A DNA stretch of 64,000 bases from Neopararhizobium haloflavum (GTDB lineage Bacteria; Pseudomonadota; Alphaproteobacteria; Rhizobiales; Rhizobiaceae), in assembly GCF_002750855.1 (NCBI RefSeq), contig NZ_NWUC01000008.1, positions 1 to 64,000 on the forward strand, written 5' to 3'. The position numbers and the translations under genes are program-made. The notes under the pieces were generated by a model. That model saw only the letters and a list, made by a program, of their open reading frames with translations, had not been told where the DNA came from and did not search any database. Shown here piece after piece: positions 49,724 through 64,000 of this stretch. How positions within the stretch are numbered: position 1 is the first letter of the stretch; each line of letters opens with the position of its first letter.

Positions 49724-51067
49724 TCAGATCGCCGCCAATGTCCGTCGCAGCGCGTCGACGATCTCGTCGATATGGGCGTGTTCGCTGATGAAGGGCGGAG
49801 CGACGATGACTGTGTCTCCGGTGAACTTGGCGTGGCAGCCGTTCCAGAACAGCTTCTTCTGCAACTCGTTGCCGCGCAGGCCCGGCTTGCCGTCCTCCGG
49901 CCACACCTCGACGCCGGCCATCAGGCCGATGCCGCGAATGTCGCGGACAACGTCGAGGTCCGACAGCGACCAGATCGCGTCGAGGAAATAGTCCGAGAGC
50001 TTGGCCGCGCGCTCGAAGAGGCCTTCGTCCTCGTAGATCTTCAATGTCGCCAGGCCGGCGGCGCAGGCGGCGGGGTGGCCGGAATAGGTGTAGCCGTGGA
50101 AGAACTCGATGGCGTTTTCGGCGGCCGCGCCGGTGACGGTTTCGTAGACGGTGTCGGATGCGGCCACCGCGCCCATCGGGATCGCGCCGTTGGTCAGCGC
50201 CTTGGCCATCGTCATGATGTCCGGCGTGACGCCGAAATGCTGGACCGCGAAGGGCGAACCGAGGCGCCCGAAGCCGGTGATGACCTCGTCGAAGACGAGC
50301 AGGATACCGTGCTTGTCGCAGATCGCGCGCAGGCGCTCCAGATAGCCCTTCGGCGGCACGAGCGTGCCTGTGGAGCCGGCCACCGGCTCGACGAAGACGG
50401 CGGCGATGGTCGATCCGCCATAGGTCGCGCAATGACGCTCCAGATCGTCGGCAAGCTCGGCGCCATGCTCGGGCTGGCCGCGCGTGAAGCAGCGGTCGGG
50501 GTCCCAGGTGTGGCGCAGCATCACGACGTTTGGCATGACGACGGGGAAGGTTTCGCGGTTGCGCACCATGCCGGAGAGCGAGACGCCGCCCATGTTGACG
50601 CCGTGATAGGCGCGCTCGCGTGAGACGAAGCGCAGGCGCTGGCTCTCGCCGCGGGCGCGGTGATAGGCCATCACCATCTTCAGCGCCGTGTCGATCGCCT
50701 CGGAACCGGAATTGACGAAGAAGACATGGTTGAACGGATCGGGCAGAAGGTCGGCGAGCTTGTCGGCGAAGGCGAAGGCTTTCGGCTGGCCGAGCTGGAA
50801 CGGTGCGGAATAGTCGTTCTCGAGCATCTGCGCGTGAACCGCGTCGGCGATCTCGCGCCGTCCGTGGCCGCAGGCGACGTTGAAGAGGCCGGACGAGCCG
50901 TCGATCAGCCGGTCGCCGTTCTGGTTCCACAGATAGACACCTTCGCTTTTCGTCACGAGACGCGGCGCGGCCTTGAAGTCCCGGTTGCTGGAGAAGGGCA
51001 TCCAGTGCGCTTCGAGCGCATCGTTGCGCAACTGATCGGCCTGGCCGGGTCTGGCTTGCATGTTCAT
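49724..51067 (-). CDS. tpa: Omega-amino acid (taurine):pyruvate aminotransferase
   Basis: A 447-residue class III PLP aminotransferase of the beta-alanine/taurine:pyruvate group. Visible landmarks are HWMPFSSNRDFK, VNSGSEAIDTALKM, AYHGVNMGG, FDEVITGFGRLG and the PLP lysine in MAKALTNGAIPMGAV. It would move the amino group of taurine to pyruvate, giving sulfoacetaldehyde. Divergence from a TauR-like regulator and nearness of tauABC and xsc support taurine over beta-alanine, but specificity is inferred from context. ATG 51067 follows GAGGAGAC. Confidence 0.78.
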   Translation of the reverse strand: MNMQARPGQADQLRNDALEAHWMPFSSNRDFKAAPRLVTKSEGVYLWNQNGDRLIDGSSGLFNVACGHGRREIADAVHAQMLENDYSAPFQLGQPKAFAFADKLADLLPDPFNHVFFVNSGSEAIDTALKMVMAYHRARGESQRLRFVSRERAYHGVNMGGVSLSGMVRNRETFPVVMPNVVMLRHTWDPDRCFTRGQPEHGAELADDLERHCATYGGSTIAAVFVEPVAGSTGTLVPPKGYLERLRAICDKHGILLVFDEVITGFGRLGSPFAVQHFGVTPDIMTMAKALTNGAIPMGAVAASDTVYETVTGAAAENAIEFFHGYTYSGHPAACAAGLATLKIYEDEGLFERAAKLSDYFLDAIWSLSDLDVVRDIRGIGLMAGVEVWPEDGKPGLRGNELQKKLFWNGCHAKFTGDTVIVAPPFISEHAHIDEIVDALRRTLAAI

Positions 51068-51127
51068 CGGTGTCTCCTCGCGACGGGGGCACGCCGGCAT
51101 TTGCGCGGGCGGGCCCGATGGCAAGTT

Positions 51128-51165
51128 GATCCTAGTGGAATTTTCTGGCCTGATCGTAGTGCCAG
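51128..51165. promoter_or_regulatory. Direct-repeat operator candidate for the MocR/TauR regulator
   Basis: GATCCTAGTG (51128-51137) and GATCGTAGTG (51152-51161) are direct repeats, 9 of 10 identical and 24 bases apart, in the divergent tpa-mocR region. On the other strand the second reads CTGGCACTAC, close to CTGGCGCTAC upstream of tauA. MocR-family regulators including TauR bind direct repeats of this kind. Confidence 0.55.
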
Positions 51166-51194
51166 TTGGGCCGCTTCGTGGTGTCCACGGCGTC

Positions 51195-52691
51195 ATGCGG
51201 CCGCGAGCCCGGAGAGTGCCATTGCGCGATGCGATCTTTCATGTGGACCGGCTGGATCCGCTGACCCTGCAGGCCCAGATCCGCGAGACGCTGGTCTCGG
51301 CGATCCTGTCCGGCCAATTGCCGGCCGGCTCGCCGGTGCCGTCCACCCGCCAGCTGTCGCGCCAGCTCAAGGTGTCGCGCAACACGGTCTCGATCGCCTA
51401 TCAGGCACTGGCGATGGACGGCTATCTGGAATCGCGCGAGCGCTCGGGCTTCTTCGTGGCGCGCGAGCCGGTGGAATTCGCGCGCGCGGCGCCGTCCGAC
51501 AAGGCGGCCGAGCCGACCAACACGCCGGACTGGAACAAATGGCTGACCATGCGCCCGGCGGCCCAGCCCAACATCGTCAAGCCGGCCGACTGGCACGGCT
51601 ATCCCTATCCGTTCCTCTACGGGCAGTCGGACCCGGCGCTCTTTCCCGTGCATGAATGGCAGGACTGCACGCGCCAGGCGGCCGGACGGCGGCTGCTCGA
51701 CGCCTGGACCGACGACAGCATCAATGCCGATGACGCCACCTTCGTCCAGCAGATCCGCCAGCGTCTCCTGCCGCGGCGCGGCATCCGGGCGGAGCCGGAC
51801 GAGATCCTCGTCACGCTCGGCGCGCAGAACGCGCTCTATCTGATCGCCAGCCTCCTGGTGCGGCCCTCCACCGTGGTCGGCCTGGAAGACCCCGGCTATC
51901 CCGACGCGCGCAACATCTTCGCGCTGATGCGCGGGCACCTGCGCATGCTGCCGGTGGATGGCGAGGGGCTGGTGACGGGCAAGGCGCTTGCGGACTGCGA
52001 CCTCGTCTATACCACGCCAAGCCACCAGTTCCCGACAAATGCGACGATGAGCCTTTCGCGCCGCCAGGCCCTGCTCGACTGGGCGGGGCGGGGCAACCGG
52101 CTGATCGTCGAGGACGATTACGAGTTCGAGACGAACTATCTCGGCCAGGCCACGCCGGCGCTGAAGTCGCTCGATCGGAACGACCGCGTGCTCTATGTCG
52201 GCAGCCTTTCCAAATCGCTCGTTCCCGGTCTCAGGATCGGCTATCTGGTCGGCCCGCGCGCGCTGATCCGCGAGGCGCGGGCGCTGAGGCGGCTGATCCT
52301 GCGCCATCCGCCCGGCAACAACCAGCGCGTCGTCGCGCTCTTCCTGGCGCTCGGCCACCACGATACACTGATCGGGCGGCTGCACAGGGCCTATAGAGCC
52401 AGATGGGAAGCGATGGACGCGGCGCTCGAGAAGCATCTGCCCGATTGGGGGCGCAGCCGCAGCTTCGGCGGCACATCCTTCTGGATGAGCGGGCCGCCCG
52501 GTCTGCGCAGCGTGGAACTGGCCCGCAAGGCGGCCGAATACGGTGTCCTGCTGGAGCCCGGCGGCATCTGCTTTGCCGACCCCACCGCGCACGAGAACAG
52601 CTTTCGTCTGGGGTTCTCGGCGATTTCGACCGAGCGCATCGAACCTGGCATCGCCCTTCTGGCGCGGGCGGCGCGCGAGGTCGCTTCCTAA
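51195..52691 (+). CDS. tauR: MocR-family (GntR-aminotransferase) regulator, TauR-like
   Basis: A 498-residue regulator with an N-terminal GntR winged HTH (LQAQIRETLVSAILSGQLPAGSPVPSTRQLSRQLKVSRNTV, residues ~18-60, shown in part as LPAGSPVPSTRQLSRQ) and a fold-type I aminotransferase domain with the PLP lysine in YVGSLSKSLVPGLRIGY. TauR activates taurine aminotransferase genes in related bacteria. It is divergent from the aminotransferase and upstream of tauABC. The start is uncertain: ATG 51195 is used, GTG 51216 is an alternative; neither has a strong ribosome site. Confidence 0.75.
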   Translation: MRPRARRVPLRDAIFHVDRLDPLTLQAQIRETLVSAILSGQLPAGSPVPSTRQLSRQLKVSRNTVSIAYQALAMDGYLESRERSGFFVAREPVEFARAAPSDKAAEPTNTPDWNKWLTMRPAAQPNIVKPADWHGYPYPFLYGQSDPALFPVHEWQDCTRQAAGRRLLDAWTDDSINADDATFVQQIRQRLLPRRGIRAEPDEILVTLGAQNALYLIASLLVRPSTVVGLEDPGYPDARNIFALMRGHLRMLPVDGEGLVTGKALADCDLVYTTPSHQFPTNATMSLSRRQALLDWAGRGNRLIVEDDYEFETNYLGQATPALKSLDRNDRVLYVGSLSKSLVPGLRIGYLVGPRALIREARALRRLILRHPPGNNQRVVALFLALGHHDTLIGRLHRAYRARWEAMDAALEKHLPDWGRSRSFGGTSFWMSGPPGLRSVELARKAAEYGVLLEPGGICFADPTAHENSFRLGFSAISTERIEPGIALLARAAREVAS

Positions 52692-52719
52692 GAGGCTCAT
52701 CCTGGGCGACCGTTGCAAC

Positions 52720-52752
52720 TGGTCCCATGCGCCGCCGAATTCTGGCGCTACC
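52720..52752. promoter_or_regulatory. Candidate TauR boxes upstream of tauA
   Basis: CTGGTCCCAT (52720-52729) and CTGGCGCTAC (52743-52752) are spaced 23 bases apart in the 243-base gap before tauA. The second differs at one position from CTGGCACTAC in the tpa-mocR region. The form CTGGNCNTA resembles published TauR boxes (CTGGAC-type direct repeats). Confidence 0.5.
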
Positions 52753-52934
52753 GCGATCGTCCGTTTGATTGTGAGTTGTCATATGACGCTGGACACTGCC
52801 GCGCGATAACGAGCCTTTGAAGCGTCCTTTCCTCGAAAGGGGGCGCCGAGGCGACACCGACCCGAACGCGGCCATGTTCCCGCTCGCCCGACGTCGGGAT
52901 GAACCGGGCGCCCATAAAGACAAGGGGAACTGTC

Positions 52935-53909
52935 ATGAACATATCGAGATTCGCAGGCGCCTCCATGCTGGCGATCGGTCTGCTGACCGGCGCCGCCGCG
53001 GCGCAGGAGAAGGTGACCGTCGCTTACTTCCTGGAGTGGCCGACGGCCAACCAAGTGGCACAGGTCGAAAAGGCCTATGACGAGGCCATGGGCGTCGAAG
53101 TCGAGTGGCGCGCCTTCGGCAACGGCAACGAGATGACCCAGGCGATGGTCTCGGGCGACGTACAGATCGCCTACAGCCAGGGCTTCGTGCCGTTTGTCGT
53201 GGGCGTCTCGAACGGTGCACCACTCAAGATGGTCGGCGTCGCCGTGACCTATTCGGAAAACGATCTTTGCATCGTGCGCGAGGATTCCGGGATCACGCAG
53301 GAAAACGCGCAGGAACTGGAAGGCAAGCGCGTCGCAACGCCGGTCGGCAACGTCACGCACTACAAGCTCCTGCGCACGCTGGAGCATCTCGGCGTCGATG
53401 CATCCGCCGTCGACATCGTGCAGATGAACCCGGCCGATGCCGCCGTGGCGCTGGTGCGCGGCGACGTCGTGATGGGCTGCGCCTTCGGCGGGCCGATCGA
53501 CCGCATGCGCGAAGTCGGCGCGCCGCTGATGACCGGCGCCGAGCAGGAGGCCGTCGGCATCAACACCTTCGACATCATTTCCGTGACGGAAAGCTTTGCC
53601 GAAGAGCATCCCGATCTCGTCACCAAGTTCCTGGAAGTGACAGAAGAAGCCAACGCCGCTTTCAAGGAAGATCCGGGCGCGGCCTATGAAACGGTTGCGC
53701 AGGCCGCCGGCATGGATGTCGCGGCAACCGAGGCCATGATGTCGAAATTCGGTTTCCCGACTGCGGAGGAACAGAAGGGCGAGAACTGGCTCGGCGGCGG
53801 CGTACAGGAGGCGACCAAGGGCGTTGCCGACGTCATGGCCGAGGCCGGCGGGCTGGAGACGGCGCTCGACGATTATTCCGAGTTCGTCGATCCGAGCTTC
53901 CTGCCATGA
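52935..53909 (+). CDS. tauA: Taurine ABC transporter, substrate-binding protein
   Basis: A 324-residue exported protein; signal FAGASMLAIGLLTGAAAA, then EKVTVAYFLEWPTANQVAQV and SGDVQIAYSQGFVPFVVGVSNGAPL (shown in part as QIAYSQGFVPFVVGVSNG). These are TauA/SsuA-class features, with the TauA-like YFLEWPT start. It delivers taurine to TauBC. ATG 52935 follows AAGGGGAAC. Its stop overlaps the start of tauB. Confidence 0.87.
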   Translation: MNISRFAGASMLAIGLLTGAAAAQEKVTVAYFLEWPTANQVAQVEKAYDEAMGVEVEWRAFGNGNEMTQAMVSGDVQIAYSQGFVPFVVGVSNGAPLKMVGVAVTYSENDLCIVREDSGITQENAQELEGKRVATPVGNVTHYKLLRTLEHLGVDASAVDIVQMNPADAAVALVRGDVVMGCAFGGPIDRMREVGAPLMTGAEQEAVGINTFDIISVTESFAEEHPDLVTKFLEVTEEANAAFKEDPGAAYETVAQAAGMDVAATEAMMSKFGFPTAEEQKGENWLGGGVQEATKGVADVMAEAGGLETALDDYSEFVDPSFLP

Positions 53910-54799
53910 CCATGGCGGCAGCGGCGCGGGCGGCAACCCCGCCGCCCGCCGAACGGGACGAGCCGATCAGCGGAGAGCAGCCGATGTCGGGTATCGAGAT
54001 CGATTCCATCTCAATGGAGTTCACCCTGCCGGACGGCGGGGTGGTGCGGGCGCTGAGCGACGTGTCGCTCGGCATCGCCACCGGCGAGATGGTCTCCGTG
54101 CTCGGCCCGTCCGGCTGCGGCAAGACGACCTTGCTCAACATCGTCGGCGGCTTCCTGTCGCCGACGCGTGGCGCGGTTCGCCTCAATGGCCATACCGTCA
54201 AGGGGCCGGCGGCCGAGCGCGGCGTCGTCTTCCAGCAGGGTGCCTTGTTCGAATGGCTGACGGTCGAACAGAACATCGGCTTCGGCCCGCGCATGGCGGG
54301 CCGACCGAAGGCGGAAATCCGCGACAAGGTGCATGATCTGCTCGGCACCGTTGGGCTGCAGGGCTTTGCCGAAAAGCCGGTCTACCAGCTTTCCGGCGGC
54401 ATGCAGCAGCGCGTCGCGCTGGCAAGGTGCCTTGCCAACGATCCCGATGTCATCTTGATGGACGAACCGCTCGGCGCGCTCGACGCGCTGACGCGCGAGA
54501 AGATGCAGGGCCTCGTGCTGAGGCTGTGGAAGGAGACGGGCAAGACCATTCTCCTCATCACCCACTCGGTGGAAGAGGCGCTCTATCTCGGCCAGCGCCT
54601 TATCGTCATGGCGCCGCGGCCGGGACGCATCATGAAAGAGTTCCGCCTGCCGTTTCCCGAAAGGGGCCTGACCATGCCGCCCCGCGAGGTGAAGGCCTCC
54701 TCCGATTTCGTCGCAACACGCGAGGAAGTGCTGTCGATGATCTGGAGCATGGAAGAGGAAATCATGGGCGAGAACGGTTCCAGCGAGGTGTCGTCATGA
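53906..54799 (+). CDS. tauB: Taurine ABC transporter, ATP-binding protein
   Basis: A 297-residue ATPase with Walker A GPSGCGKTTLLN, Q-loop VFQQGALFEWLTV, signature LSGGMQQRVALARC, Walker B VILMDEPLGALD and H-loop ITHSVEEAL. An N-terminal extension of ~30 Ala/Pro-rich residues precedes the domain, so ATG 53987 is an alternative start. Coupled to tauA and tauC by 4-base overlaps. Confidence 0.9.
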   Translation: MTMAAAARAATPPPAERDEPISGEQPMSGIEIDSISMEFTLPDGGVVRALSDVSLGIATGEMVSVLGPSGCGKTTLLNIVGGFLSPTRGAVRLNGHTVKGPAAERGVVFQQGALFEWLTVEQNIGFGPRMAGRPKAEIRDKVHDLLGTVGLQGFAEKPVYQLSGGMQQRVALARCLANDPDVILMDEPLGALDALTREKMQGLVLRLWKETGKTILLITHSVEEALYLGQRLIVMAPRPGRIMKEFRLPFPERGLTMPPREVKASSDFVATREEVLSMIWSMEEEIMGENGSSEVSS

Positions 54800-55662
54800 G
54801 CGCTCAGGTGAAATCGCCCCGGCTGGCCATCTGGCTCGGCCTTGCGGACAATGCCTTCACCCGGCAGAAGACGGTGAAGTTCGGCGATGCGGCGGCGGTC
54901 AATTCCGGCCGGTTCTATTCGGTGCTCGTTGTCGTCGTTCTGCTTCTGGCCTGGGTCGTGACGTCGGCGCTCAACCTGATCGAGCCGTTCTACTGGCCGA
55001 CGATCCAGGGCACATGGGATCGCTTCACGAAGCTGGTGGCGGAGGGCTATCGCAACGTACCGCTGATCGATCATATCGGCATCAGCGTCTACCGCGTTCT
55101 GTCCGGTGTCGTCTATGGCGCGCTCGTCGGCATCCCGATCGGCTTTGCCATGGGGCTTTCGTCGGTGGCGCGCGGCTTTATGGATCCGATCGTGGAGTTC
55201 ATGCGGCCGATCCCGCCGCTCGCGCTGATCCCGCTGGTGATCCTGTGGTTCGGGATCGACGAGACGGCGAAGATCTTCCTGCTCTTCCTCGCCTCGCTGT
55301 TCATCATGATCCTCGCCGCGCGGGCCGGCGTTTCGAGTGTCCGGGTCTCCAAGGTGCACGCGGCCTATTCGCTGGGTGCGTCGAAGCTTCAGGTGTTGCG
55401 TCACGTCATCCTGCCGAATGCCCTGCCGGAAATCTTCACCGGCCTGCGCACCGCGATGGGCGTGTGCTGGGGAACGGTCGTCGCCGCCGAGCTCGTCGCC
55501 GCCGACCAGGGCCTTGGCTCGATGATCATGATCGCCAAGAACTTCCTGCAGACCGACACCGTCGTCATCGGCATCATCCTGATTGGCCTCATCGGCTACA
55601 CGATCGAGATGGTGATGCGCTGGCTGGAACGCATCCTGATCCCGTGGAAGGGCAAGGGGTGA
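54796..55662 (+). CDS. tauC: Taurine ABC transporter, permease
   Basis: A 288-residue inner-membrane permease with ~6 helices and the EAA loop AAYSLGASKLQVLRHVILPNA. The C-terminal half (AAELVAADQGLGSMIMIAKNFLQTD) is typical of TauC/SsuC. ATG 54796 overlaps the tauB stop. Last gene of the tauABC operon. Confidence 0.9.
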   Translation: MSAQVKSPRLAIWLGLADNAFTRQKTVKFGDAAAVNSGRFYSVLVVVVLLLAWVVTSALNLIEPFYWPTIQGTWDRFTKLVAEGYRNVPLIDHIGISVYRVLSGVVYGALVGIPIGFAMGLSSVARGFMDPIVEFMRPIPPLALIPLVILWFGIDETAKIFLLFLASLFIMILAARAGVSSVRVSKVHAAYSLGASKLQVLRHVILPNALPEIFTGLRTAMGVCWGTVVAAELVAADQGLGSMIMIAKNFLQTDTVVIGIILIGLIGYTIEMVMRWLERILIPWKGKG

Positions 55663-55680: not shown

Positions 55681-55710
55681 GGTGACCCGCGGCGAAAGCG
55701 GCGGGTCACC
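55681..55710. terminator. Hairpin between tauC and the LysR gene
   Basis: A perfect 10-bp stem GGTGACCCGC / GCGGGTCACC with a 10-base loop, lying between convergent genes and overlapping the LysR stop. No T tract on either side, so termination is likely weak or rho-assisted. Confidence 0.55.
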
Positions 55711-56584
55711 GTTCCGGGATCGCGATCGCCTCGAACATGTCGCAGATGACGTCGCGCGACTTTTTCTTGTGCATCGACTTGCGCGTCAGCATGCCGATAC
55801 GCCGGTAGATCGCCGGCTCGCCGAACTCCACGACACGGTAGGGCTGGGGCGTCATTCCCCGCACGCGAATGTCGGGCAGAACCGATATGCCGAAGCCGAG
55901 CTCGACCATCTTGTGGATTGCTTCCAGCGACTCGATCTCGGCGTTGGTGTCGGGCGATATGCCGAGCATCGCAAGCCGCTCCTCGATCAGCGGCGCCACC
56001 CAGGCTGAGCGGTTGAAGCGGATATAGGGATAGGTGGCGAAAAGCTCCGCCGGGTCGGTCTCGGTGGAATCTGGCGGCGCCACGATGGCGATCTGCTGGC
56101 GGCAGACGTCGCGCCAATCGAAACGGTCGTCGATGCGCTTTGGCCGGTGCATCAGCGCGCCGTCGACCTCACCGATGTCGACGAGGTTCTCCAGCTCTCC
56201 GGACAGGTTCGACGTCACGTTGACGACGAGGTTCGGGTGCGCCGTCTTCAGCGCCATCAGCGTCGTCGTCACGATGCTGATCAAGACGGTCGGCACGGCG
56301 CTCAGGCGGAAATAGTCGCGATAACTGTGCACATCGGCAAGGCGCTCCACCATCGTGTCGTGCTGGTCTACGATGGTGCGCGCATAGTGCAGCACGGTTT
56401 CGCCGACCCGCGTCAGCCGTGGCGGGCGATAGCGCCGGTCGAACAGGACGACCCCGAGCGATTGCTCCAGGGAAACGATCTGCATGCTGATCGCCGAGGG
56501 CGTCATGTTGAGCGCGCGCGCGGCATTGGCGAAGGAATGATGATCGATGATCGCCTTCAGCGACCGCAAGCCTCGCACCGACAT
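55706..56584 (-). CDS. LysR-type regulator of the sulfoacetate-type operon
   Basis: A 292-residue LTTR: HTH with SFANAARALNMTPSAISMQI in residues 17-36, effector domain beginning near residue 90 (YFRLSAVPTVLISIV). It is divergent from the TTT-transporter operon with a 129-base intergenic region containing an inverted repeat, the usual layout of an LTTR and its target. It probably responds to the operon's substrate or an intermediate. Confidence 0.85.
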   Translation of the reverse strand: MSVRGLRSLKAIIDHHSFANAARALNMTPSAISMQIVSLEQSLGVVLFDRRYRPPRLTRVGETVLHYARTIVDQHDTMVERLADVHSYRDYFRLSAVPTVLISIVTTTLMALKTAHPNLVVNVTSNLSGELENLVDIGEVDGALMHRPKRIDDRFDWRDVCRQQIAIVAPPDSTETDPAELFATYPYIRFNRSAWVAPLIEERLAMLGISPDTNAEIESLEAIHKMVELGFGISVLPDIRVRGMTPQPYRVVEFGEPAIYRRIGMLTRKSMHKKKSRDVICDMFEAIAIPER

Positions 56585-56619
56585 CGCCCCTTCCTCCTGT
56601 GCAGCACAAATCCAGATTC

Positions 56620-56637
56620 CTTGAATTTAATACCAAG
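56620..56637. promoter_or_regulatory. Inverted repeat in the LysR-tctC divergent region
   Basis: CTTG-N10-CAAG forms an inverted repeat in an AT-rich centre, the size and form of LTTR boxes. It lies 77 bases before the tctC start and 36 bases before the LysR start on the other strand. Binding is inferred. Confidence 0.4.
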
Positions 56638-56713
56638 ATTTCGCGCTTTGGTTAAAGGGTCTTTCTGTTAGCCTTCCTCCGATCAGTTGAGGAGCTGTAT
56701 CAGGGAGGACTTC

Positions 56714-57715
56714 ATGATGATTTCGAAATGCCGATTTGCAGGCCTTGTAGCGACCGCCGCACTGGTGGCGGGCGGGGCGTTCGCGCAGGAAGCGCAGATG
56801 GAAACGCCGCAGGGGTTCGGTAAACGCCCACTTACAATGATCGTGCCATTCGGTGCCGGTGGGGGGTCCGACCAGCTCGCCCGCGCCATGGCGCAGTCGA
56901 TGAACGAGGTTGCCGGCCTCAACTTCCAGATCGTCACTCGGCCGGGTGGCGGCGGTGTCGCCGCGATTCCGGACTTCATGCTCGCGCCTGCCGACGGCCA
57001 TACGATCCTGCAGCATATCGACCTGATCGTCGCCGCCTATGCCAAAGGCGACATCCAGGAGAACCCGGCGGAAGACTGGGCGCCGCTTTGCACCACGCAG
57101 ATCACGTTCAACCAGCTCTACATCGCCGGCGACGAAGACCGTTTCTCCGACTGGGAAAGCATGGTCGCCTACATGGAGGAAAGCGGTGAGCAGCTGACGG
57201 TCGCCAATCTCGGCCAGGTCGGGTCCATGGAACAGATCACGATGGACATGATGGAGGATGCCGTCGGTCTGGAGTTCCGCAAGGTTGCCTACGACAACCC
57301 GTCCGAGCGCTACGGGTCGCTGATCGGCGGCCATGCCGACGTTCTCTTCGAACAGCCCGGCGATGTGCGCAACTTCATCGAGTCCGGCCAGATGAAGCCG
57401 ATCGTCACCTTCTACGAGGAACGCCCGGAGGTCTTCGCCGACGTCCCCACGCACCGCGATCTCGGCGCCGATTTCGACGCGATGCTGCGGTTTCGCGGCT
57501 TCTACGTCAAAGGCGGCACGCCGCAGGATCGGGTCGACTTCCTCGTGGAGGCTTGCGAACGCGGCTTCAACACGGAGTCCTATCAGGCATTCAATGCCGA
57601 CAACTACATGGATCTGATCGACAGCTTCCGCGACCAGGAAGGCACCCGCCAGCTGATCAACGATACCGTGGCGACCTATCAGGCGATCTACGAGGAGATG
57701 GGCATCCTCGAATAG
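56714..57715 (+). CDS. TTT-family substrate-binding protein (TctC/Bug type)
   Basis: A 333-residue exported Bug/TctC protein; signal FAGLVATAALVAGGAFA. The landmark is LTMIVPFGAGGGSDQLARAM, the ligand-binding segment of this family, followed by RPGGGGVAAIPDFM. Together with the two membrane genes it forms a tripartite tricarboxylate-type transporter. In this operon its substrate is probably sulfoacetate, by inference from the downstream enzymes. ATG 56714 follows AGGGAGGAC. Confidence 0.9.
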   Translation: MMISKCRFAGLVATAALVAGGAFAQEAQMETPQGFGKRPLTMIVPFGAGGGSDQLARAMAQSMNEVAGLNFQIVTRPGGGGVAAIPDFMLAPADGHTILQHIDLIVAAYAKGDIQENPAEDWAPLCTTQITFNQLYIAGDEDRFSDWESMVAYMEESGEQLTVANLGQVGSMEQITMDMMEDAVGLEFRKVAYDNPSERYGSLIGGHADVLFEQPGDVRNFIESGQMKPIVTFYEERPEVFADVPTHRDLGADFDAMLRFRGFYVKGGTPQDRVDFLVEACERGFNTESYQAFNADNYMDLIDSFRDQEGTRQLINDTVATYQAIYEEMGILE

Positions 57716-57728
57716 CCGAGGCTCTGCC

Positions 57729-57766
57729 GGTCGGCGGGCGGCCACCTGGGGGTGCCCCCGCCGACC
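57729..57766 (+). terminator. Long hairpin after tctC (attenuator or mRNA-stabilising)
   Basis: Outer stem GGTCGGCGGG (57729-57738) / CCCGCCGACC (57757-57766), inner stem CACC / GGTG, 4-base loop. Followed by CCTTTCCC, not a run of T. Position after a binding-protein gene parallels the smoE hairpin. Confidence 0.65.
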
Positions 57767-57812
57767 CCTTTCCCATTCATCCTTCAGAACCATGTCCGGG
57801 AGCATTTGTGCC

Positions 57813-58394
57813 ATGGCACGATCGACCGAATTCGACGTGACGACGTCCAGCGGCCCGTCGCCCTATCTTCGTCCCGCTTTGGAATGGGCCGTGTGGGTCG
57901 GCTTCGCGCTGCTTGCTTATTCCCAGACCGGACTCTTCGATCGCGAGATACCCGAATACCGCTTCGGCGCGACGGGCTGGCCGCGTGCCGTCTGCCTCCT
58001 GATGATCGCCGGCGCCACCGGGCAATTCCTGATGCGATGCCTGACGATCGCGCGCGGCGTCGTCGAAACGGACGCGGCCGAGGAAGCGCCGCGGCAAAAG
58101 CTCAGCGGCCGCGAGATCGCGCAGCGCACTGCGATCTTCCTGCTGCCGCTCGTCTATCTCTATGCCGTTCCCTATCTCGGCTTCTACCTGATGACGCCGC
58201 TCTTCATGCTGGCGCTGATGCTGATCCTTGAGGTGCGCTCGCCGGGGCCGCTCATCGGCGTGCCGCTCACCGTCTCGGTGATCTTCCTTCTGGTCTTCAC
58301 CCGCCTTTTCTATGTCGGCATGCCCGTCGGCAATTTGCCGGGCTTCTACGACGTCAACAACGCCATCATCGGGTTCGCCCGGCTGGGCATGTAG
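57813..58394 (+). CDS. TTT transporter small membrane subunit (TctB-like)
   Basis: A 193-residue protein with about four transmembrane helices, the usual size of TctB. The N-terminus is ARSTEFDVTTSSGPSPYLRP; the helices include IFLLPLVYLYAVPYLGFYLM. ATG 57813 has GGGAG 10 bases upstream, preferred over ATG 57792 which has none. The gap of 9 bases to the large subunit indicates one operon. Confidence 0.82.
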   Translation: MARSTEFDVTTSSGPSPYLRPALEWAVWVGFALLAYSQTGLFDREIPEYRFGATGWPRAVCLLMIAGATGQFLMRCLTIARGVVETDAAEEAPRQKLSGREIAQRTAIFLLPLVYLYAVPYLGFYLMTPLFMLALMLILEVRSPGPLIGVPLTVSVIFLLVFTRLFYVGMPVGNLPGFYDVNNAIIGFARLGM

Positions 58395-58403
58395 GAGGAC
58401 GTC

Positions 58404-59927
58404 ATGGAAGCGTTCATCGGCGGTACGATCAGCCTTTTCGGCGACCCCACGTCGCTCATGCTGTTCTTCTTCGGCCTGATCGGCGGCATGCTGTTCGGCG
58501 CCATCCCCGGCGTCAACATGCTGACGCTCGGCGCCGTTCTTCTGCCCTTCACCATCACCATGAATCCCGAAAACGCGGTGATGCTGTTTTCGGTCATCTA
58601 CTGCGCCGGTGTCTTCGGCGGGGCGATCACCGCGATTCTCTTCAACATTCCCGGCGCGCCGGAGAACGCGCCAACCTGTTTCGACGGCTATCCGATGACG
58701 CAGAAGGGCCAGTCCGGCAAGGCGATCGGCGCGGCCGTCATCTGCTCGGCGGCCGGCGGGCTGGCCTCCGTCATCCTGATGATGACCTCGACCGGCATCA
58801 TCGCCGGCTGGGCGATCCGCGCCTTCGGCCCGCCGGAGATCTTCGCGCTGATCTTCTTCGGCCTCGCCGTCTCCGCGTCCGTCGGCGCCAAGACGCTGTG
58901 GAAAGGCTGGCTGTCGGTGATGATCGGCCTCCTGCTTGCCACGGTCGGCACCGATCCCGTCGGCGGCATCCGCCGCTTCAACGAGGGGTCCTTTCTCGGG
59001 CTGGACTACAGTTCCTACTATCTCTCCGCCGGCATTCACTTCATCCCGCTGATCCTCGGCTTCTTCGCCGTGTCGGAAGTGTTGACCCAGGCGATCAACA
59101 TCGCGACGGGAACCCGCGAGCGGCCGAAGGCGGGGCTTGAGTTCCCCACGATCGCCGAGTTCTGGCAGGTGCGCTACACGATGATCCGTTCGACGCTGAT
59201 CGGTTTCTTCGCCGGCGTCCTTCCCGGCATCGGTGCGACGCTCGGCGCGTTCCTGAGCTACACCCAGGCGCTGCGCTGGTCGAAGAACCGCAAGAATTTC
59301 GGCAAGGGCGAACTTGAAGGTGTCGTCGCGTCGGAAACCGCGAACAACGCGGCAACCGGGGCGGCGATGATCCCGCTGCTTGCGCTGGGGCTTCCCGGCG
59401 GCGCGCTGACGGCGATGATCATGGGCATCTTCCAGATTCACGGCATGGAACCGGGGCCGCTCATCTTCATCAATTCCAGCGAGCTCGTCTGGATCACGTT
59501 TGCGGCGATGTTCTGGGCCAACCTGATGATCATCGTGCTCGGCTGGGTGCAGACGAAGACCGTGGTGCATATCCTGAGGGTGCCGTTCCGCTGGCTCGCC
59601 CCCGGTATCCTCGTTCTGGCGATCGTTGGCGCCTATGCGCTGCGCAATCTCTTCGTCGATGTCTGGGTGATGTTCCTGGCCGGCATCGCGGGCTACTTCC
59701 TGCGCTCCACCGGCTATTCGGCGGCCGGCGTCGTGCTCGGCCTCATCCTCGGGGCGATCGGCGAGTCAGCCTTTGCGACCTCGGCGCAACTGCTCGACTA
59801 TTCGATCCTCAATTTCCTCTCACGGCCGATCGCCGCGACGCTCTTCATCCTGGGCGTGCTGACGATCGTGACCAGCGTCATCAACGAACTGCGCGGGGCC
59901 GACCAGCCCAAGGCCCTGATCGACTGA
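58404..59927 (+). CDS. TTT transporter large membrane subunit (TctA-like)
   Basis: A 507-residue permease of the TctA family with ~12 helices. Family segments visible: FGAIPGVNMLTLGAVLLPFT, FNIPGAPENAPTCFDGYPM, SETANNAATGAAMIPLLALG and LPGGALTAMIMG. It completes the tripartite transporter. Start ATG 58404 follows GGAGGAC. The 36-base gap to the dehydrogenase gene keeps it in the same operon. Confidence 0.92.
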   Translation: MEAFIGGTISLFGDPTSLMLFFFGLIGGMLFGAIPGVNMLTLGAVLLPFTITMNPENAVMLFSVIYCAGVFGGAITAILFNIPGAPENAPTCFDGYPMTQKGQSGKAIGAAVICSAAGGLASVILMMTSTGIIAGWAIRAFGPPEIFALIFFGLAVSASVGAKTLWKGWLSVMIGLLLATVGTDPVGGIRRFNEGSFLGLDYSSYYLSAGIHFIPLILGFFAVSEVLTQAINIATGTRERPKAGLEFPTIAEFWQVRYTMIRSTLIGFFAGVLPGIGATLGAFLSYTQALRWSKNRKNFGKGELEGVVASETANNAATGAAMIPLLALGLPGGALTAMIMGIFQIHGMEPGPLIFINSSELVWITFAAMFWANLMIIVLGWVQTKTVVHILRVPFRWLAPGILVLAIVGAYALRNLFVDVWVMFLAGIAGYFLRSTGYSAAGVVLGLILGAIGESAFATSAQLLDYSILNFLSRPIAATLFILGVLTIVTSVINELRGADQPKALID

Positions 59928-59963
59928 TCAGCGGCGCGCGCCGACAAGCCCAAGGAGGCAAAA

Positions 59964-61394
59964 ATGTCAGCAACAGTGGAAAGGCTCGACGAGCGACAGC
60001 CGGACGAAGCCGCAAAGGTGGCCGCACTGATCGATCGCGCCCGCGCCGCCATGGAGGCCTATGAGAACCACGATCAGGCCCGCGTCGACGAGGCGGTGAC
60101 CGCGCTTGCATGGTCGATCTACAAGCCAGAAAACGCGCGCCGGCTGGCCGAACTGGCGGTGGAGGATACCGGGCTCGGCAATGTGGATTCCAAGATCATC
60201 AAGAACACGCGCAAGACCTTCGGTACCCTGCGCGACCTGATGCGGGCGAAGACCGTCGGCGTGATCGACGAACAGCCGGAAAGGGGCCTCGTTCTCTACG
60301 GCAAGCCGGTTGGCGTGGTGGCCGCCGTCTGCCCGTCGACCAACCCTGCGGCAACGCCGGTCAACAAGGCGATGATGGCGCTGAAGGGCGGCAATGCGGT
60401 GATCATCGCGCCCTCGCCGGCCGGTTACCAGACCACGGCGGACACGGTGGCGCTGATGCGGGCGGAACTCGCCAAGGCCGGCCACCCCGAAGACCTGGTG
60501 CAGATCCTGCCCAAGCCCGTCAACAAGGCGATGACGCAGGCGCTTCTCGAAATGGCCGATCTCAACGTCGTCACCGGCTCGCAGAACAACGTCAAACGCG
60601 CCATGCAATCCGGCACGGTGTCGATCGGCGTCGGTGCGGGCAACGCGCCGGTCGTCATCGACAGTTCCGCCGATTTCGACGATGCGGCGGAGAAGATCAC
60701 GGCATCGAAAATCTTCGACAACGCGACCTCATGCTCGTCGGAAAATTCGGTGATCATCCTCGACGACGTCTATGAGGAGGCGATGGCGGCGCTCGAGCGG
60801 GCTGGCGGCTATCGCTGCTCGCCCGAGCAGAAGGACGCCATCGGCGCCACGCTCTGGGTCGACGGCAAGCTCAACCGCCACGTCCTTGCCAAGGATCCTG
60901 CCATCGCCGCAGAGGTGTTCGGCCTGCCGGCCGAAGCCCGCGAACGCAAGTTCTTCATGGTTGAGGAGGCGTCGGTCGGCGGCAAGCATTCCTTTGCCGA
61001 CGAGAAGCTGTCGCTGGTTCTGACGGTCTATCGCGCCAAGGATTTTGATGATGCCAAGCGCATCGTGCGTGACGTGCTGAACGTGACGGGACGCGGTCAC
61101 TCGGTCGGAATCCACACGAGCGACATGAACCATGCGCGGGACCTCGCGGCGGCGACTGATGTCGTGCGCGTGCTGGTCAATCAGGCGCACACCTTCGGCA
61201 ATGGCGGGAGCTTCAACAACGCGCTGCCATTCACCCTTTCGATGGGCGGTGGCACCTGGGCAGGCAACACGATCGACGACAACCTCAACTACCGCTGCTT
61301 CATCAACGTCACGCGGCTCGTCACCACCATCGCGGAGGACAAGCCGGGCGAAGACGAACTCTTCGGGGCCTACTGGGCGAAATTCGGCAAGTGA
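59964..61394 (+). CDS. sauS: Acylating (CoA-dependent) sulfoacetaldehyde dehydrogenase, SauS-like
   Basis: A 476-residue CoA-acylating aldehyde dehydrogenase. The N-terminus AVEDTGLGNVDSKIIKN, KPVGVVAAVCPSTNPAATPVNKAMMAL (shown in part as GVVAAVCPSTNPAATP) and the active-site Cys257 in NATSCSSENSV place it with the EutE/SauS group rather than classical ALDHs. SauS converts sulfoacetyl-CoA and NAD(P)H to sulfoacetaldehyde and CoA. The ligase and xsc genes next to it argue for that substrate over acetyl- or succinyl-CoA. A strong AGGAGG site precedes ATG 59964. Confidence 0.8.
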   Translation: MSATVERLDERQPDEAAKVAALIDRARAAMEAYENHDQARVDEAVTALAWSIYKPENARRLAELAVEDTGLGNVDSKIIKNTRKTFGTLRDLMRAKTVGVIDEQPERGLVLYGKPVGVVAAVCPSTNPAATPVNKAMMALKGGNAVIIAPSPAGYQTTADTVALMRAELAKAGHPEDLVQILPKPVNKAMTQALLEMADLNVVTGSQNNVKRAMQSGTVSIGVGAGNAPVVIDSSADFDDAAEKITASKIFDNATSCSSENSVIILDDVYEEAMAALERAGGYRCSPEQKDAIGATLWVDGKLNRHVLAKDPAIAAEVFGLPAEARERKFFMVEEASVGGKHSFADEKLSLVLTVYRAKDFDDAKRIVRDVLNVTGRGHSVGIHTSDMNHARDLAAATDVVRVLVNQAHTFGNGGSFNNALPFTLSMGGGTWAGNTIDDNLNYRCFINVTRLVTTIAEDKPGEDELFGAYWAKFGK

Positions 61395-61404
61395 GGGACC
61401 AGCG

Positions 61405-62541
61405 ATGAACTTCGAAGAATATGTAGCAAAGCCGCTGCTCGCGGGCGTCGGCATCACCGTTCCCAGGAGCCGCCTTGCCGAGGATCCGGCCGAGGCGGCA
61501 AAGGCCGCGGCCGAAATCGGTGCCTGCGTCGTCAAGGCGCAGGTGCCGACCGGCAAGCGCGGCAAGGCCGGCGGGATCAAGCTGGCTGCGAACCCGGACG
61601 AGGCGCGCGGCCATGCCGAGGCGATCCTCGGAATGGAGATCGACGGCCATCGCGTGATGAAGGTGACCATCGAGGAACAGGTGCCGATCGCCCTGGAACT
61701 CTACGCCAGCATCGTCAGCGATCCGCAGAGCCGCTCGCCCATGCTCCTGTTCTCCGCGATGGGCGGGATGGACGTCGAGGAAGCGGCCGAGACAAATCCC
61801 GATGCCATGCGCCGCCGCGTGATCGACATCACCGAGGGGCTGAGCGAGGAAGACGCGGCGGCGGCCTGCGCCGGACTCGACCTTGGCGGGCAGGAAGCGG
61901 ACGTCGCCAGCACGCTCGTCCGGCTCTACGCGGCCTATCGCATGTTCGACGCCGAGCTTCTTGAGATCAACCCGCTGGTCATCACCAGGGATGGCCGTGT
62001 CGTCGCCCTCGACTGCAAGCTGACGGTCGACGATTCCTCCGCGCCGCGCCAGGGCGAGATCGCCGGCCGGGCCAGCGCTGAGAAGATGAGCGCGCTGGAG
62101 GCCGAGGCGCGCGCAGCCGATCTCAAATATATCGAGCTTGGCGGCGATGTCGGCATCCTGGCCAACGGCGCCGGCCTTACCATGACGACGATGGATGCAG
62201 TGAACCACTATGGCGGCAAGGCGGCGAATTTCCTGGAGGTGGGCGGCGAGGCCTATACCAAGGCGCACACGGCGCTGGCGATCCTTCTGAAGAACCCGGA
62301 GATCAAGAGCCTCCTGGTCAATTTCTGCGGCGCATTCGCGCGCACCGATGTCATGGCGTTGGGCGTCGTGGAGGCCTGGAAGGATCTCAAGCCGGATATC
62401 CCGGTCTTCTTCACCATTCACGGAACCGGCGAGGAAGAGGCCATCGCCCTCGTCAAGCGCGAACTCGGCATCGAACCTTTCGACCGGATGGACGATGCCG
62501 TCAGGGCCGCGGTCGCGGCAACGGGGGCAAGAGCGGCATGA
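61405..62541 (+). CDS. SucC-like ADP-forming CoA ligase beta subunit (sulfoacetate-CoA ligase candidate)
   Basis: A 378-residue ATP-grasp beta subunit: the N-terminal FEEYVAKPLLAGVGI, VVKAQVPTGKRGKAGGIKL (nucleotide region), EINPLVITRDGRVVALDCKL (metal site, partly shown) and LGGDVGILANGAGLTMTTMD, then GGEAYTKAHTALAILLKN. It forms the ligase with the alpha subunit encoded next. Its length matches SucC/MtkA. Context favours sulfoacetate as substrate: ADP-forming sulfoacetate-CoA ligases of the SqwKL type have been reported. Succinate- or malate-CoA ligase is the alternative. Confidence 0.72.
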   Translation: MNFEEYVAKPLLAGVGITVPRSRLAEDPAEAAKAAAEIGACVVKAQVPTGKRGKAGGIKLAANPDEARGHAEAILGMEIDGHRVMKVTIEEQVPIALELYASIVSDPQSRSPMLLFSAMGGMDVEEAAETNPDAMRRRVIDITEGLSEEDAAAACAGLDLGGQEADVASTLVRLYAAYRMFDAELLEINPLVITRDGRVVALDCKLTVDDSSAPRQGEIAGRASAEKMSALEAEARAADLKYIELGGDVGILANGAGLTMTTMDAVNHYGGKAANFLEVGGEAYTKAHTALAILLKNPEIKSLLVNFCGAFARTDVMALGVVEAWKDLKPDIPVFFTIHGTGEEEAIALVKRELGIEPFDRMDDAVRAAVAATGARAA

Positions 62542-63410
62542 TCCTACGCAAGCACCACAAGATCCTCGTCCAAGGGATCACCGGCAAACAGGGCACCTTC
62601 TGGACCGGCGAGATGCAGACCTATGGCGCCAACGTCGTCTGCGGCGTCAATCCGCGCAAGGCGGGCACAACGCATCTGGGCGTTCCGGTCCATGCCAGTG
62701 CCAGGGACGCGGCCGGGCAGTTTGACGTGGCGCTGATGTTCGTGCCGCCGATGATGGCCAGGGATGCCACGATCGACGTATGCGAAGCCGGTGCCAGGCT
62801 CGTGATCTGTCTGGCAGAGCACATTCCCGCCCATGACGTGATGATGATGCATGCCGCGGCGAAGGCAAACGGTGCGCGCATCGTCGGGCCCAACACATCG
62901 GGCCTCGTGACCCCCGGCGAGACGTTCGCGGGCATCATGCCGGCGTTCAATCCCAAGGTGTTCCAGCCAGGCCAGGTCGGCGTCATCTCGCGCTCGGGCA
63001 GTCTCGGCACGCTAGTCAGCCTCATGCTGACCCAGGAGGGCATGGGGCAGTCGGCGTTTTACGGCGTGGGCGGCGATCCGATGATTGGCACGACAACCCG
63101 CGAGGCCCTCGAATTCCTCGATGCGGACGAGCGGACCGAGGCCATCGTGCTGTGCGGCGAGATCGGCGGCAATGCCGAGGAGGAGGCGGCTGACTATGCC
63201 CGCACGATGAAAAAGCCGGTGGTGGCCTTCATCGCGGGCCGCTCCTCTCCGCCCGGCAAGAAGATGGGCCATGCCGGCGCCATCGTTTCCGGCGGCAAGG
63301 GCGACTATGCATCAAAGCGCCGCGCGTTGGAGAAGGCCGGCGTCAGGGTGGCCGACGTGCCGAGCCAGATCCCCGTGATCATCGGCGAGGAGATGCGCGC
63401 CGCGGCCTGA
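62538..63410 (+). CDS. SucD-like CoA ligase alpha subunit (sulfoacetate-CoA ligase candidate)
   Basis: A 290-residue alpha subunit: CoA-binding N-terminus [50 protein letters not shown] and the phosphohistidine H245 in [13 protein letters not shown]. All catalytic features of the SucD family are intact. It overlaps the beta gene by four bases (ATGA). With SauS and Xsc nearby it should complete the activation step sulfoacetate + ATP + CoA to sulfoacetyl-CoA; substrate is inferred. Confidence 0.75.
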
Positions 63411-63418
63411 AAACGTCC

Positions 63419-63437
63419 CATGCCCGCCGAGGGCATG
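63419..63437 (+). terminator. Short hairpin before xsc
   Basis: CATGCCC-5 nt-GGGCATG, 7-bp stem, no T tract, in the 121-base gap before xsc. It may attenuate or process the message; weak evidence. Confidence 0.3.
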
Positions 63438-63531
63438 TCCAATCGCATGTTCCAATCTGGCCTTATGACATCCCCCGCCAAGGCGGCAAGATGGGGCCAG
63501 TCCGTTTCAAGGGAAGAGGTTTGTTTACGCC

Positions 63532-64000
63532 ATGAAGATGACGACCGAGGAAGCATTCATCAAGGTTCTGCAGATGCACGGCATCCGCCAGGCCTTCGGC
63601 ATCATCGGTTCCGCGATGATGCCTGTTTCGGATCTGTTTCCGAAGGCCGGCATCACGTTCTGGGACTGCGCCCATGAGACCAACGCGGCCCTGATCTGCG
63701 ACGGCTACACGCGCACCACCGGCGAGATGGCGATGGCGATCGCGCAGAACGGGCCGGGGGTCACGGGCTTCGTCACTTCGATCAAGACCGCCTACTGGAA
63801 CCATACCCCGATGCTGCTGGTCACGCCGCAGGCGGCGAACAAGACGATCGGACAGGGCGGTTTCCAGGAAGTCGACCAGATGGCGATGTTCGAGGAGATG
63901 GTCTGCTATCAGGAGGAGGTCCGCGACCCCTCGCGCGTCGCCGAGGTCCTCAACCGCGTGATCGAAAAGGCGTGGCGCGGATCGGCGCCGGCGCAGATCA
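63532..64000 (+). CDS. xsc: Sulfoacetaldehyde acetyltransferase, N-terminal part
   Basis: The gene runs off the window after 156 codons. The visible part is a thiamine-diphosphate enzyme N-terminus: TEEAFIKVLQMHGIRQAFGI, IGSAMMPVSDLFPKAGITFW, the ThDP-activating Glu in DCAHETNAALI, then AQNGPGVTGFVTSIKTAYWN and ANKTIGQGGFQEVDQMAMF. This run of segments is specific to Xsc, which converts sulfoacetaldehyde and phosphate to acetyl phosphate and sulfite. ATG 63532 fits the family start. A phosphotransacetylase gene is expected downstream, outside the window. Confidence 0.9.
   Translation, partial: MKMTTEEAFIKVLQMHGIRQAFGIIGSAMMPVSDLFPKAGITFWDCAHETNAALICDGYTRTTGEMAMAIAQNGPGVTGFVTSIKTAYWNHTPMLLVTPQAANKTIGQGGFQEVDQMAMFEEMVCYQEEVRDPSRVAEVLNRVIEKAWRGSAPAQI

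Follow-up and report, generated by a model that had tools for sequence, protein, structure and literature searches.

How would a member of the Rhizobiaceae take up and mineralize sulfoacetate, and is the gene set that it would use a new variant of the pathway? This question is raised by a stretch of 64,000 nucleotides of Neopararhizobium haloflavum (hereafter the window), which corresponds to bases 1-64000 of a 223-kb contig (NZ_NWUC01000008.1, here C35) in a genome of 4.17 Mb and 36 contigs. A first-pass annotation had proposed that its right end carries a sulfoacetate operon combining a tripartite tricarboxylate transporter (TTT), the acylating dehydrogenase SauS, a SucCD-like ligase pair and the sulfoacetaldehyde acetyltransferase Xsc. 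Our analysis indicates that this operon very probably mediates sulfoacetate uptake and mineralization of the SauCD type.

Gene content and proposed pathway

All genes named in that annotation are open frames lying in the order and on the strand it had given, and their identities were confirmed using Pfam and NCBIfam models. Chance matches or broken genes were ruled out by the family cut-offs and the open frames. On the plus strand, from 56714 to the window end, tctC, tctB, tctA, sauS, the ligase beta gene (sauC), the ligase alpha gene (sauD) and xsc follow one another, with gaps of 76, 9, 36 and 10 nt in turn between tctC and sauC, a 4-nt overlap of sauC and sauD, and a gap of 121 nt between sauD and xsc. 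A LysR-family gene (55706..56584, minus strand; Pfam HTH_1, PF00126, and LysR_substrate, PF03466) is divergent from this run. Two starts were set from the sequence: tctC begins at ATG 56714, preceded by CAGGGAGGA, and not at TTG 56687, and the start of the ligase beta gene was corrected to ATG 61405.

SauS (59964..61394) scored 781 bits with the equivalog model NF047625 (cut-off 600), and its next-best NCBIfam family reached 337 bits, under that family's own cut-off. Upstream of it lie the three subunits of a SauXYZ-like TTT carrier: the solute-binding protein TctC (56714..57715; PF03401, 70 bits, cut-off 27), the small membrane subunit TctB (57792..58394; PF07331, 48 bits, cut-off 29) and the large membrane subunit TctA (58404..59927; PF01970, 429 bits). 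Downstream, the SauC-like beta subunit, an ATP-grasp protein (61405..62541; ATP-grasp_2, PF08442, and Ligase_CoA, PF00549), and the SauD-like alpha subunit (62538..63410; CoA_binding, PF02629, and PF00549) are proposed to form an ADP-forming sulfoacetate-CoA ligase. Xsc (63532..64000, continuing to C35:65307) scored 993 bits with TIGR03457 (cut-off 676); read past the window end, it is the only one of eight matches to this model in the genome that exceeds the cut-off.

The end given for the locus, 64000, proved to be the window edge, as the co-directional run extends to C35:70836. A pta-like gene (C35:65342-66313, PTA_PTB domain) is followed on the same strand by genes for a molybdopterin oxidoreductase (SoeA-like, C35:66336-69170), a 4Fe-4S protein (SoeB-like, C35:69158-69910) and a DmsC-type membrane subunit (SoeC-like, C35:69910-70836), whose Pfam domains fit a candidate SoeABC complex.

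These genes suggest a complete route. TctC would capture sulfoacetate in the periplasm and TctA/TctB would import it by secondary transport. SauCD would then convert sulfoacetate and CoA to sulfoacetyl-CoA at the expense of ATP, releasing ADP and phosphate, and SauS would reduce sulfoacetyl-CoA to sulfoacetaldehyde. With phosphate, Xsc would cleave sulfoacetaldehyde to sulfite and acetyl phosphate, from which the Pta-type protein would form acetyl-CoA, while the SoeABC-like membrane complex would oxidize sulfite to sulfate. Compared with the AMP-forming ligase SauT, an ADP-forming ligase should save one phosphate bond. The equivalog assignment of SauS, the presence of xsc, pta-like and soe-like genes in one run, the separate clade of the ligase and its co-occurrence with SauS make the sulfoacetate function first proposed for this locus very likely.

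Separation of the ligase pair from SucCD and MtkAB

The beta subunit scored under all three SucC/MtkA NCBIfam cut-offs that it matched (354 against 370, 316 against 376 and 265 against 604), and the alpha subunit under both SucD cut-offs (322 against 353 and 321 against 336). Another SucCD-like pair is present in the genome, at 38% and 43% identity to the window pair.

We built a tree of 63 ligase pairs: seven SucCD and three MtkAB references and, beside the window pair, 52 relatives. Of its rows, 61 are distinct, L078/L102 and L100/L104 being the same organisms in two collections. The incomplete pairs of L081, L111 and L124 were omitted, and the SucD row of E. coli is truncated C-terminally. 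In this quick tree, computed without bootstrap and with a program warning of long branches, the window pair and the 52 relatives formed a single clade on a very long branch, with a Shimodaira-Hasegawa-like approximate likelihood ratio (SH-aLRT) support of 100, and this clade of 53 pairs persisted after omission of three long-branched rows. Constraining the window pair with the three MtkAB rows cost 298 log-likelihood units (approximately unbiased [AU] test, p-AU 1.2e-5), and constraining it with the seven SucCD rows cost 310 (p-AU 1.4e-64). A grouping with succinate or malate CoA ligases, part of what the first-pass annotation had said would refute its proposal, was thus rejected.

Fixed alignment columns separate 53/53 clade rows from 10/10 SucC/MtkA rows. 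Selected as at least 90% uniform within each group, these columns fall in two motif regions of SucC, NIFGG and RLxGTN, which we take to be near its acid-binding site; the clade has NFCGA in place of NIFGG, NIFAG or NVFGG, and GTG in place of GTN or GNN. The alpha subunit retains the MGHAGA motif, which presumably carries the phosphorylated histidine in SucD, and this retention argues for an ADP-forming mechanism. The nearest solved structures are SucCD chains. Judged by the model scores, the tree and the AU tests, the window ligase is not a misread tricarboxylic acid cycle enzyme.

Typing with a SauT reference revealed no SauT at the operon locus. Elsewhere in the genome, the best of 16 matches to Tateyamaria SauT reached 41% identity over residues 148-495 of 495 and was judged an ordinary acyl-CoA synthetase; by comparison, 13 SauT proteins of the order that were typed with the same reference showed 47-62% identity.

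Distribution of SauS loci and relation to known systems

We examined 397 genomes of the order (Hyphomicrobiales at NCBI, which holds Filomicrobium insigne). SauS was counted over its cut-off only, since at an E value of 0.001 matches were found in 14/14 control genomes and in 396/397 genomes of the order. Under this rule 51 of the 397 genomes carried SauS, at 53 loci, and the stretch around each locus was retrieved and typed, first by a SauC or SauD lying no more than 2.5 kb from SauS, then by SauT and then by a CoA-transferase. Thirty loci had a member of the ligase pair, 14 had SauT (on the opposite strand in L053), one had a CoA-transferase and eight had none, the last being an upper bound, as at 13 of the 52 loci other than the window's SauS is flanked by less than 5 kb on one side or both. 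L055 contains an additional weak SauT-type match (35%). SauS-SauCD is therefore commoner than SauS-SauT in the sampled order (30 vs 14 of 53 loci).

A carrier was scored as TTT if TctA was matched no farther than 9 kb from SauS, and as major facilitator superfamily (MFS) if either of two reference carriers was matched within 5 kb. TTT genes accompanied the ligase pair at 17 loci, SauT at 12 and the CoA-transferase at one, and MFS genes accompanied the ligase pair at two loci and SauT at one. Neither type was found at 11 ligase-pair loci and one SauT locus, which are likewise upper bounds and not proof of absence. Ten of the 17 loci that combine TTT genes with the ligase pair have an Xsc match within 12 kb: nine at about 80% identity or more, including the window, and L092 at 46%. 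Xsc matches overall mix strong (80-84%) and weak ones (46-49%; L049, L050, L092 and L101). A SoeA match within 12 kb occurred in only 2/53 loci (the window and L057); in the sampled order, soe genes are thus not a regular component of the operon.

A search with the ligase (E <=1e-90, identity 55-100%) detected it in 35/397 genomes, with 19 of 142 genera involved. SauS exceeded its cut-off in 34 of these 35 genomes, compared with 51/397 overall (hypergeometric p = 2.7e-35 for 34 shared genomes, uncorrected for relatedness). In the 35th, G032, SauS is split over two contigs with its tail 5 bases before the ligase, whose frame contains one TGA. Among the loci with no typed neighbor, L052, L079, L083 and L086 belong to genomes that hold the ligase elsewhere, L046 to a genome whose second SauS locus has the ligase, and L068 is cut by a contig end. 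The remaining two, L098 (G073) and L099 (G030), have SauS over the cut-off, no ligase match in the genome and no SauT within 2.5 kb, the only range in which SauT was sought. In L098, SauS adjoins genes for an acetate kinase and fumarate-reductase-like subunits.

A contig scan with the ligase beta subunit yielded 23 loci, 18 of which have SauS in the same stretch; these relatives include records of Filomicrobium, Azospirillum, Roseomonas, Geminicoccaceae, Hyphomonadaceae, Paracoccaceae and Rhodobacteraceae. The other five (L109 and L111, on short contigs, L113, L118 and L124) come from genomes that all have SauS elsewhere, over the cut-off in three and as fragments in two. Plasmid matches to the beta subunit numbered 103 records. 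Among the 40 matches listed, 11 showed 53.7-61.8% identity (eight from Azospirillum or Indioceanicola and three from Rhodococcus), and the other 29 showed at most 41.7%. An Azospirillum argentinense plasmid combines in one run a pta-type gene, tctCBA, sauS, the genes for the ligase pair and for SoeABC-like proteins, and xsc. The Indioceanicola plasmid shares this set, xsc lying nearby on the other strand, and the Rhodococcus plasmid encodes the ligase pair, an MFS carrier and xsc being found close by, on the other strand. Plasmids of Tateyamaria and Ruegeria combine TTT genes with an AMP-binding, SauT-type protein.

We observed that public records (L069-L071, plasmid records) label the ligase beta subunit as succinate-CoA ligase or simply as an ATP-grasp protein. 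Sulfoacetate users may be under-counted, as some of these records annotate the ligase as succinate-CoA ligase.

Bilophila wadsworthia sauXYZ/sauSCD similarly includes the ADP-forming sulfoacetate-CoA ligase SauCD, SauS and the TTT carrier SauXYZ, a putative sulfoacetate carrier (PMC12625764, PMC12890257). As judged from these descriptions, Bilophila differs in that sulfoacetaldehyde is converted to isethionate, on which IseG acts in turn, whereas the window operon has xsc, pta-like and SoeABC-like genes. The sponge symbiont OTU3 (Arenicellales, Gammaproteobacteria), described in 2025, has sauSCD with TTT genes and also xsc and pta in its genome; the part of that paper available does not state whether xsc lies in the same cluster or whether soe genes are present (PMC12625764). 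In two other symbionts, sauST with TTT genes forms a hybrid type, and sauST and sauSCD were reported in 4/99 and 3/99 non-sponge bins, respectively; four sau-bearing non-sponge bins are alphaproteobacterial (Puniceispirillales or Rhodobacterales), their sau type being unstated there (PMC12625764). The Cupriavidus necator system sauSTU shares the SauS step and relies on SauT and the MFS carrier SauU in place of the ligase pair and TTT carrier seen here (PMC12625764).

Setting out from Cupriavidus SauSTU and from SqwKL, the first-pass annotation had presented the operon as an aerobic alphaproteobacterial variant in which unrelated parts replace both SauU and SauT. The claim of a new variant mostly falls, since the ligase, the dehydrogenase and the carrier type have already been tied to sulfoacetate, including in an xsc-bearing proteobacterium (PMC12625764), and since SauCD is the commoner type in this order. 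The alphaproteobacterial setting is at most an extension of known systems, in view of the alphaproteobacterial sau bins mentioned above, and the SauCD type is common in it (30/53 loci). The available part of PMC13372026 contained nothing on SauCD, and among the listings of open-licence literature no paper dealt specifically with an xsc-linked SauCD operon from alphaproteobacteria, which does not prove that none exists. The modest novelty lies in the locus count, the single-locus set reaching from import to sulfite oxidation and the bearing on some "succinate-CoA ligase" annotations in this clade. A route described from a gut anaerobe and a marine symbiont would thereby extend to alphaproteobacteria with named isolates such as Filomicrobium and Azospirillum.

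Carriers, substrate and direction of flow

The TTT carriers that we observed near the same SauS-SauCD core fall into at least three identity groups (compare L054, L055, L076, L078, L080, L090 and L092 with L073-L075, L084 and L089 and with L095 and L100); their TctA shows 36-38% or 79-84% identity to the window TctA, or 69-73% to the Tateyamaria TctA, as if carriers had been exchanged. A carrier that is not fixed would also be expected if the Tct genes served another substrate and adjoined the sau genes by chance. We consider this unlikely, as 30/53 loci have a TctA match no farther than 9 kb from SauS, whichever ligase is present, and as Bilophila has SauXYZ for its putative sulfoacetate carrier (PMC12625764). 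A search limited to C35:55001-75000 and to the two reference MFS carriers (from Rhodococcus and Caballeronia, not Cupriavidus SauU) gave no match. A relative of the divergent LysR protein (47-53% identity) occupies the same position in 5/52 other SauS loci (L073, L074, L075, L084 and L089), and this regulator probably controls the operon, possibly in response to sulfoacetate.

Two loci show a different association. In L077 (G338:C46, 5761-11556), TTT genes, a SauS over the cut-off and a family III CoA-transferase (PF02515) follow one another and no ligase lies among them, and L126, on a Haloterrigena plasmid (6015-11643), has the same arrangement with a SauS 50% identical to that of the window. 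The CoA-transferase at these loci is possibly a third route of sulfoacetate activation, by CoA transfer; no CoA-transferase neighbor stands beside a further SauS-like gene from haloarchaea (L150). A tentative generalization, which we rate as somewhat short of probable, is that sulfoacetate use is modular across prokaryotes, with a SauS core fed by SauCD, SauT or a family III CoA-transferase and supplied by repeatedly recruited TTT carriers or by MFS carriers, SauCD being the main route in this order.

Several points weigh against the assignment of the operon to sulfoacetate. The Pta-type protein is over the Pfam cut-off for PTA_PTB and under the NCBIfam cut-offs (best model 268 against 282), SoeABC is assigned from Pfam domains only, and the ligase is likened to Bilophila SauCD and to SqwKL by description. 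The run is presumably one transcript, although a second promoter could lie in the 121-nt gap that separates sauD from xsc. A promoter scan found no sigma-70-like site in this gap, which proves little; the scan for promoters and terminators was uninformative (one promoter-like site vs 1.3 expected and four terminator-like sites vs 5.2 expected). By eye, we noted inside the gap a perfect 7-bp hairpin with a loop of 5 and no T run (63419-63437), which could tune or separate xsc expression. Furthermore, the ligase pairs of L113 and L118 (both Hyphomicrobiaceae) have no SauS in their 10-kb flanks, SauS being located elsewhere in both genomes, and that of L118 stands among housekeeping genes, between those for farnesyl diphosphate (FPP) synthase and single-stranded DNA-binding protein (SSB), with a transglycosylase gene nearby.

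These two loci would also fit a ligase pair that activates another short acid, such as succinate, malate, malonate or 3-sulfopropionate, with the dehydrogenase serving that acid; the substrate of the window ligase is predicted, and HpfYZ, a further ligase of the SucCD-like kind, takes 3-sulfopropionate specifically and rejects sulfoacetate (PMC11489063). Given the SauS equivalog score, xsc in the run, the second SucCD-like pair of the genome, the AU tests and the co-occurrence with SauS, we find this very unlikely. An E. gilvus plasmid stretch (L128) has genes for a phosphate acyltransferase and a butyrate kinase beside a dehydrogenase gene, and not HpfYZ.

Flow might also run in reverse, taurine-derived sulfoacetaldehyde being converted by SauS to sulfoacetyl-CoA, from which the ligase would make ATP and sulfoacetate for excretion. 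SqwD/SqwKL of sulfoquinovose fermenters, which resemble the window genes as an acylating dehydrogenase and ADP-forming ligase with the same intermediates, operate in this opposite direction and produce sulfoacetate and ATP (PMC11489063, PMC12890257; compared from published descriptions), and taurine-related genes adjoin the operon; such excretion is nevertheless highly improbable here, as carriers that work with a periplasmic binding protein are importers and the xsc, pta-like and soe-like genes of the same run would consume sulfoacetaldehyde and sulfite.

Sulfoacetate import and mineralization thus remain the preferred function, and the adjoining genes suggest a further role for Xsc. The region 49724-55662 of the window encodes an omega-aminotransferase (608 bits with the AptA model, cut-off 500), a MocR-type regulator and a TauABC-like transporter, each subunit of which scored under its taurine equivalog cut-off. 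Since the operon carries the sole xsc over the cut-off in the genome and adjoins these genes, its Xsc probably also serves taurine. On the other side, beyond the SoeABC-like genes, lie a glpR-type gene and then frames resembling glpD and glpK, the latter two recognized by eye.

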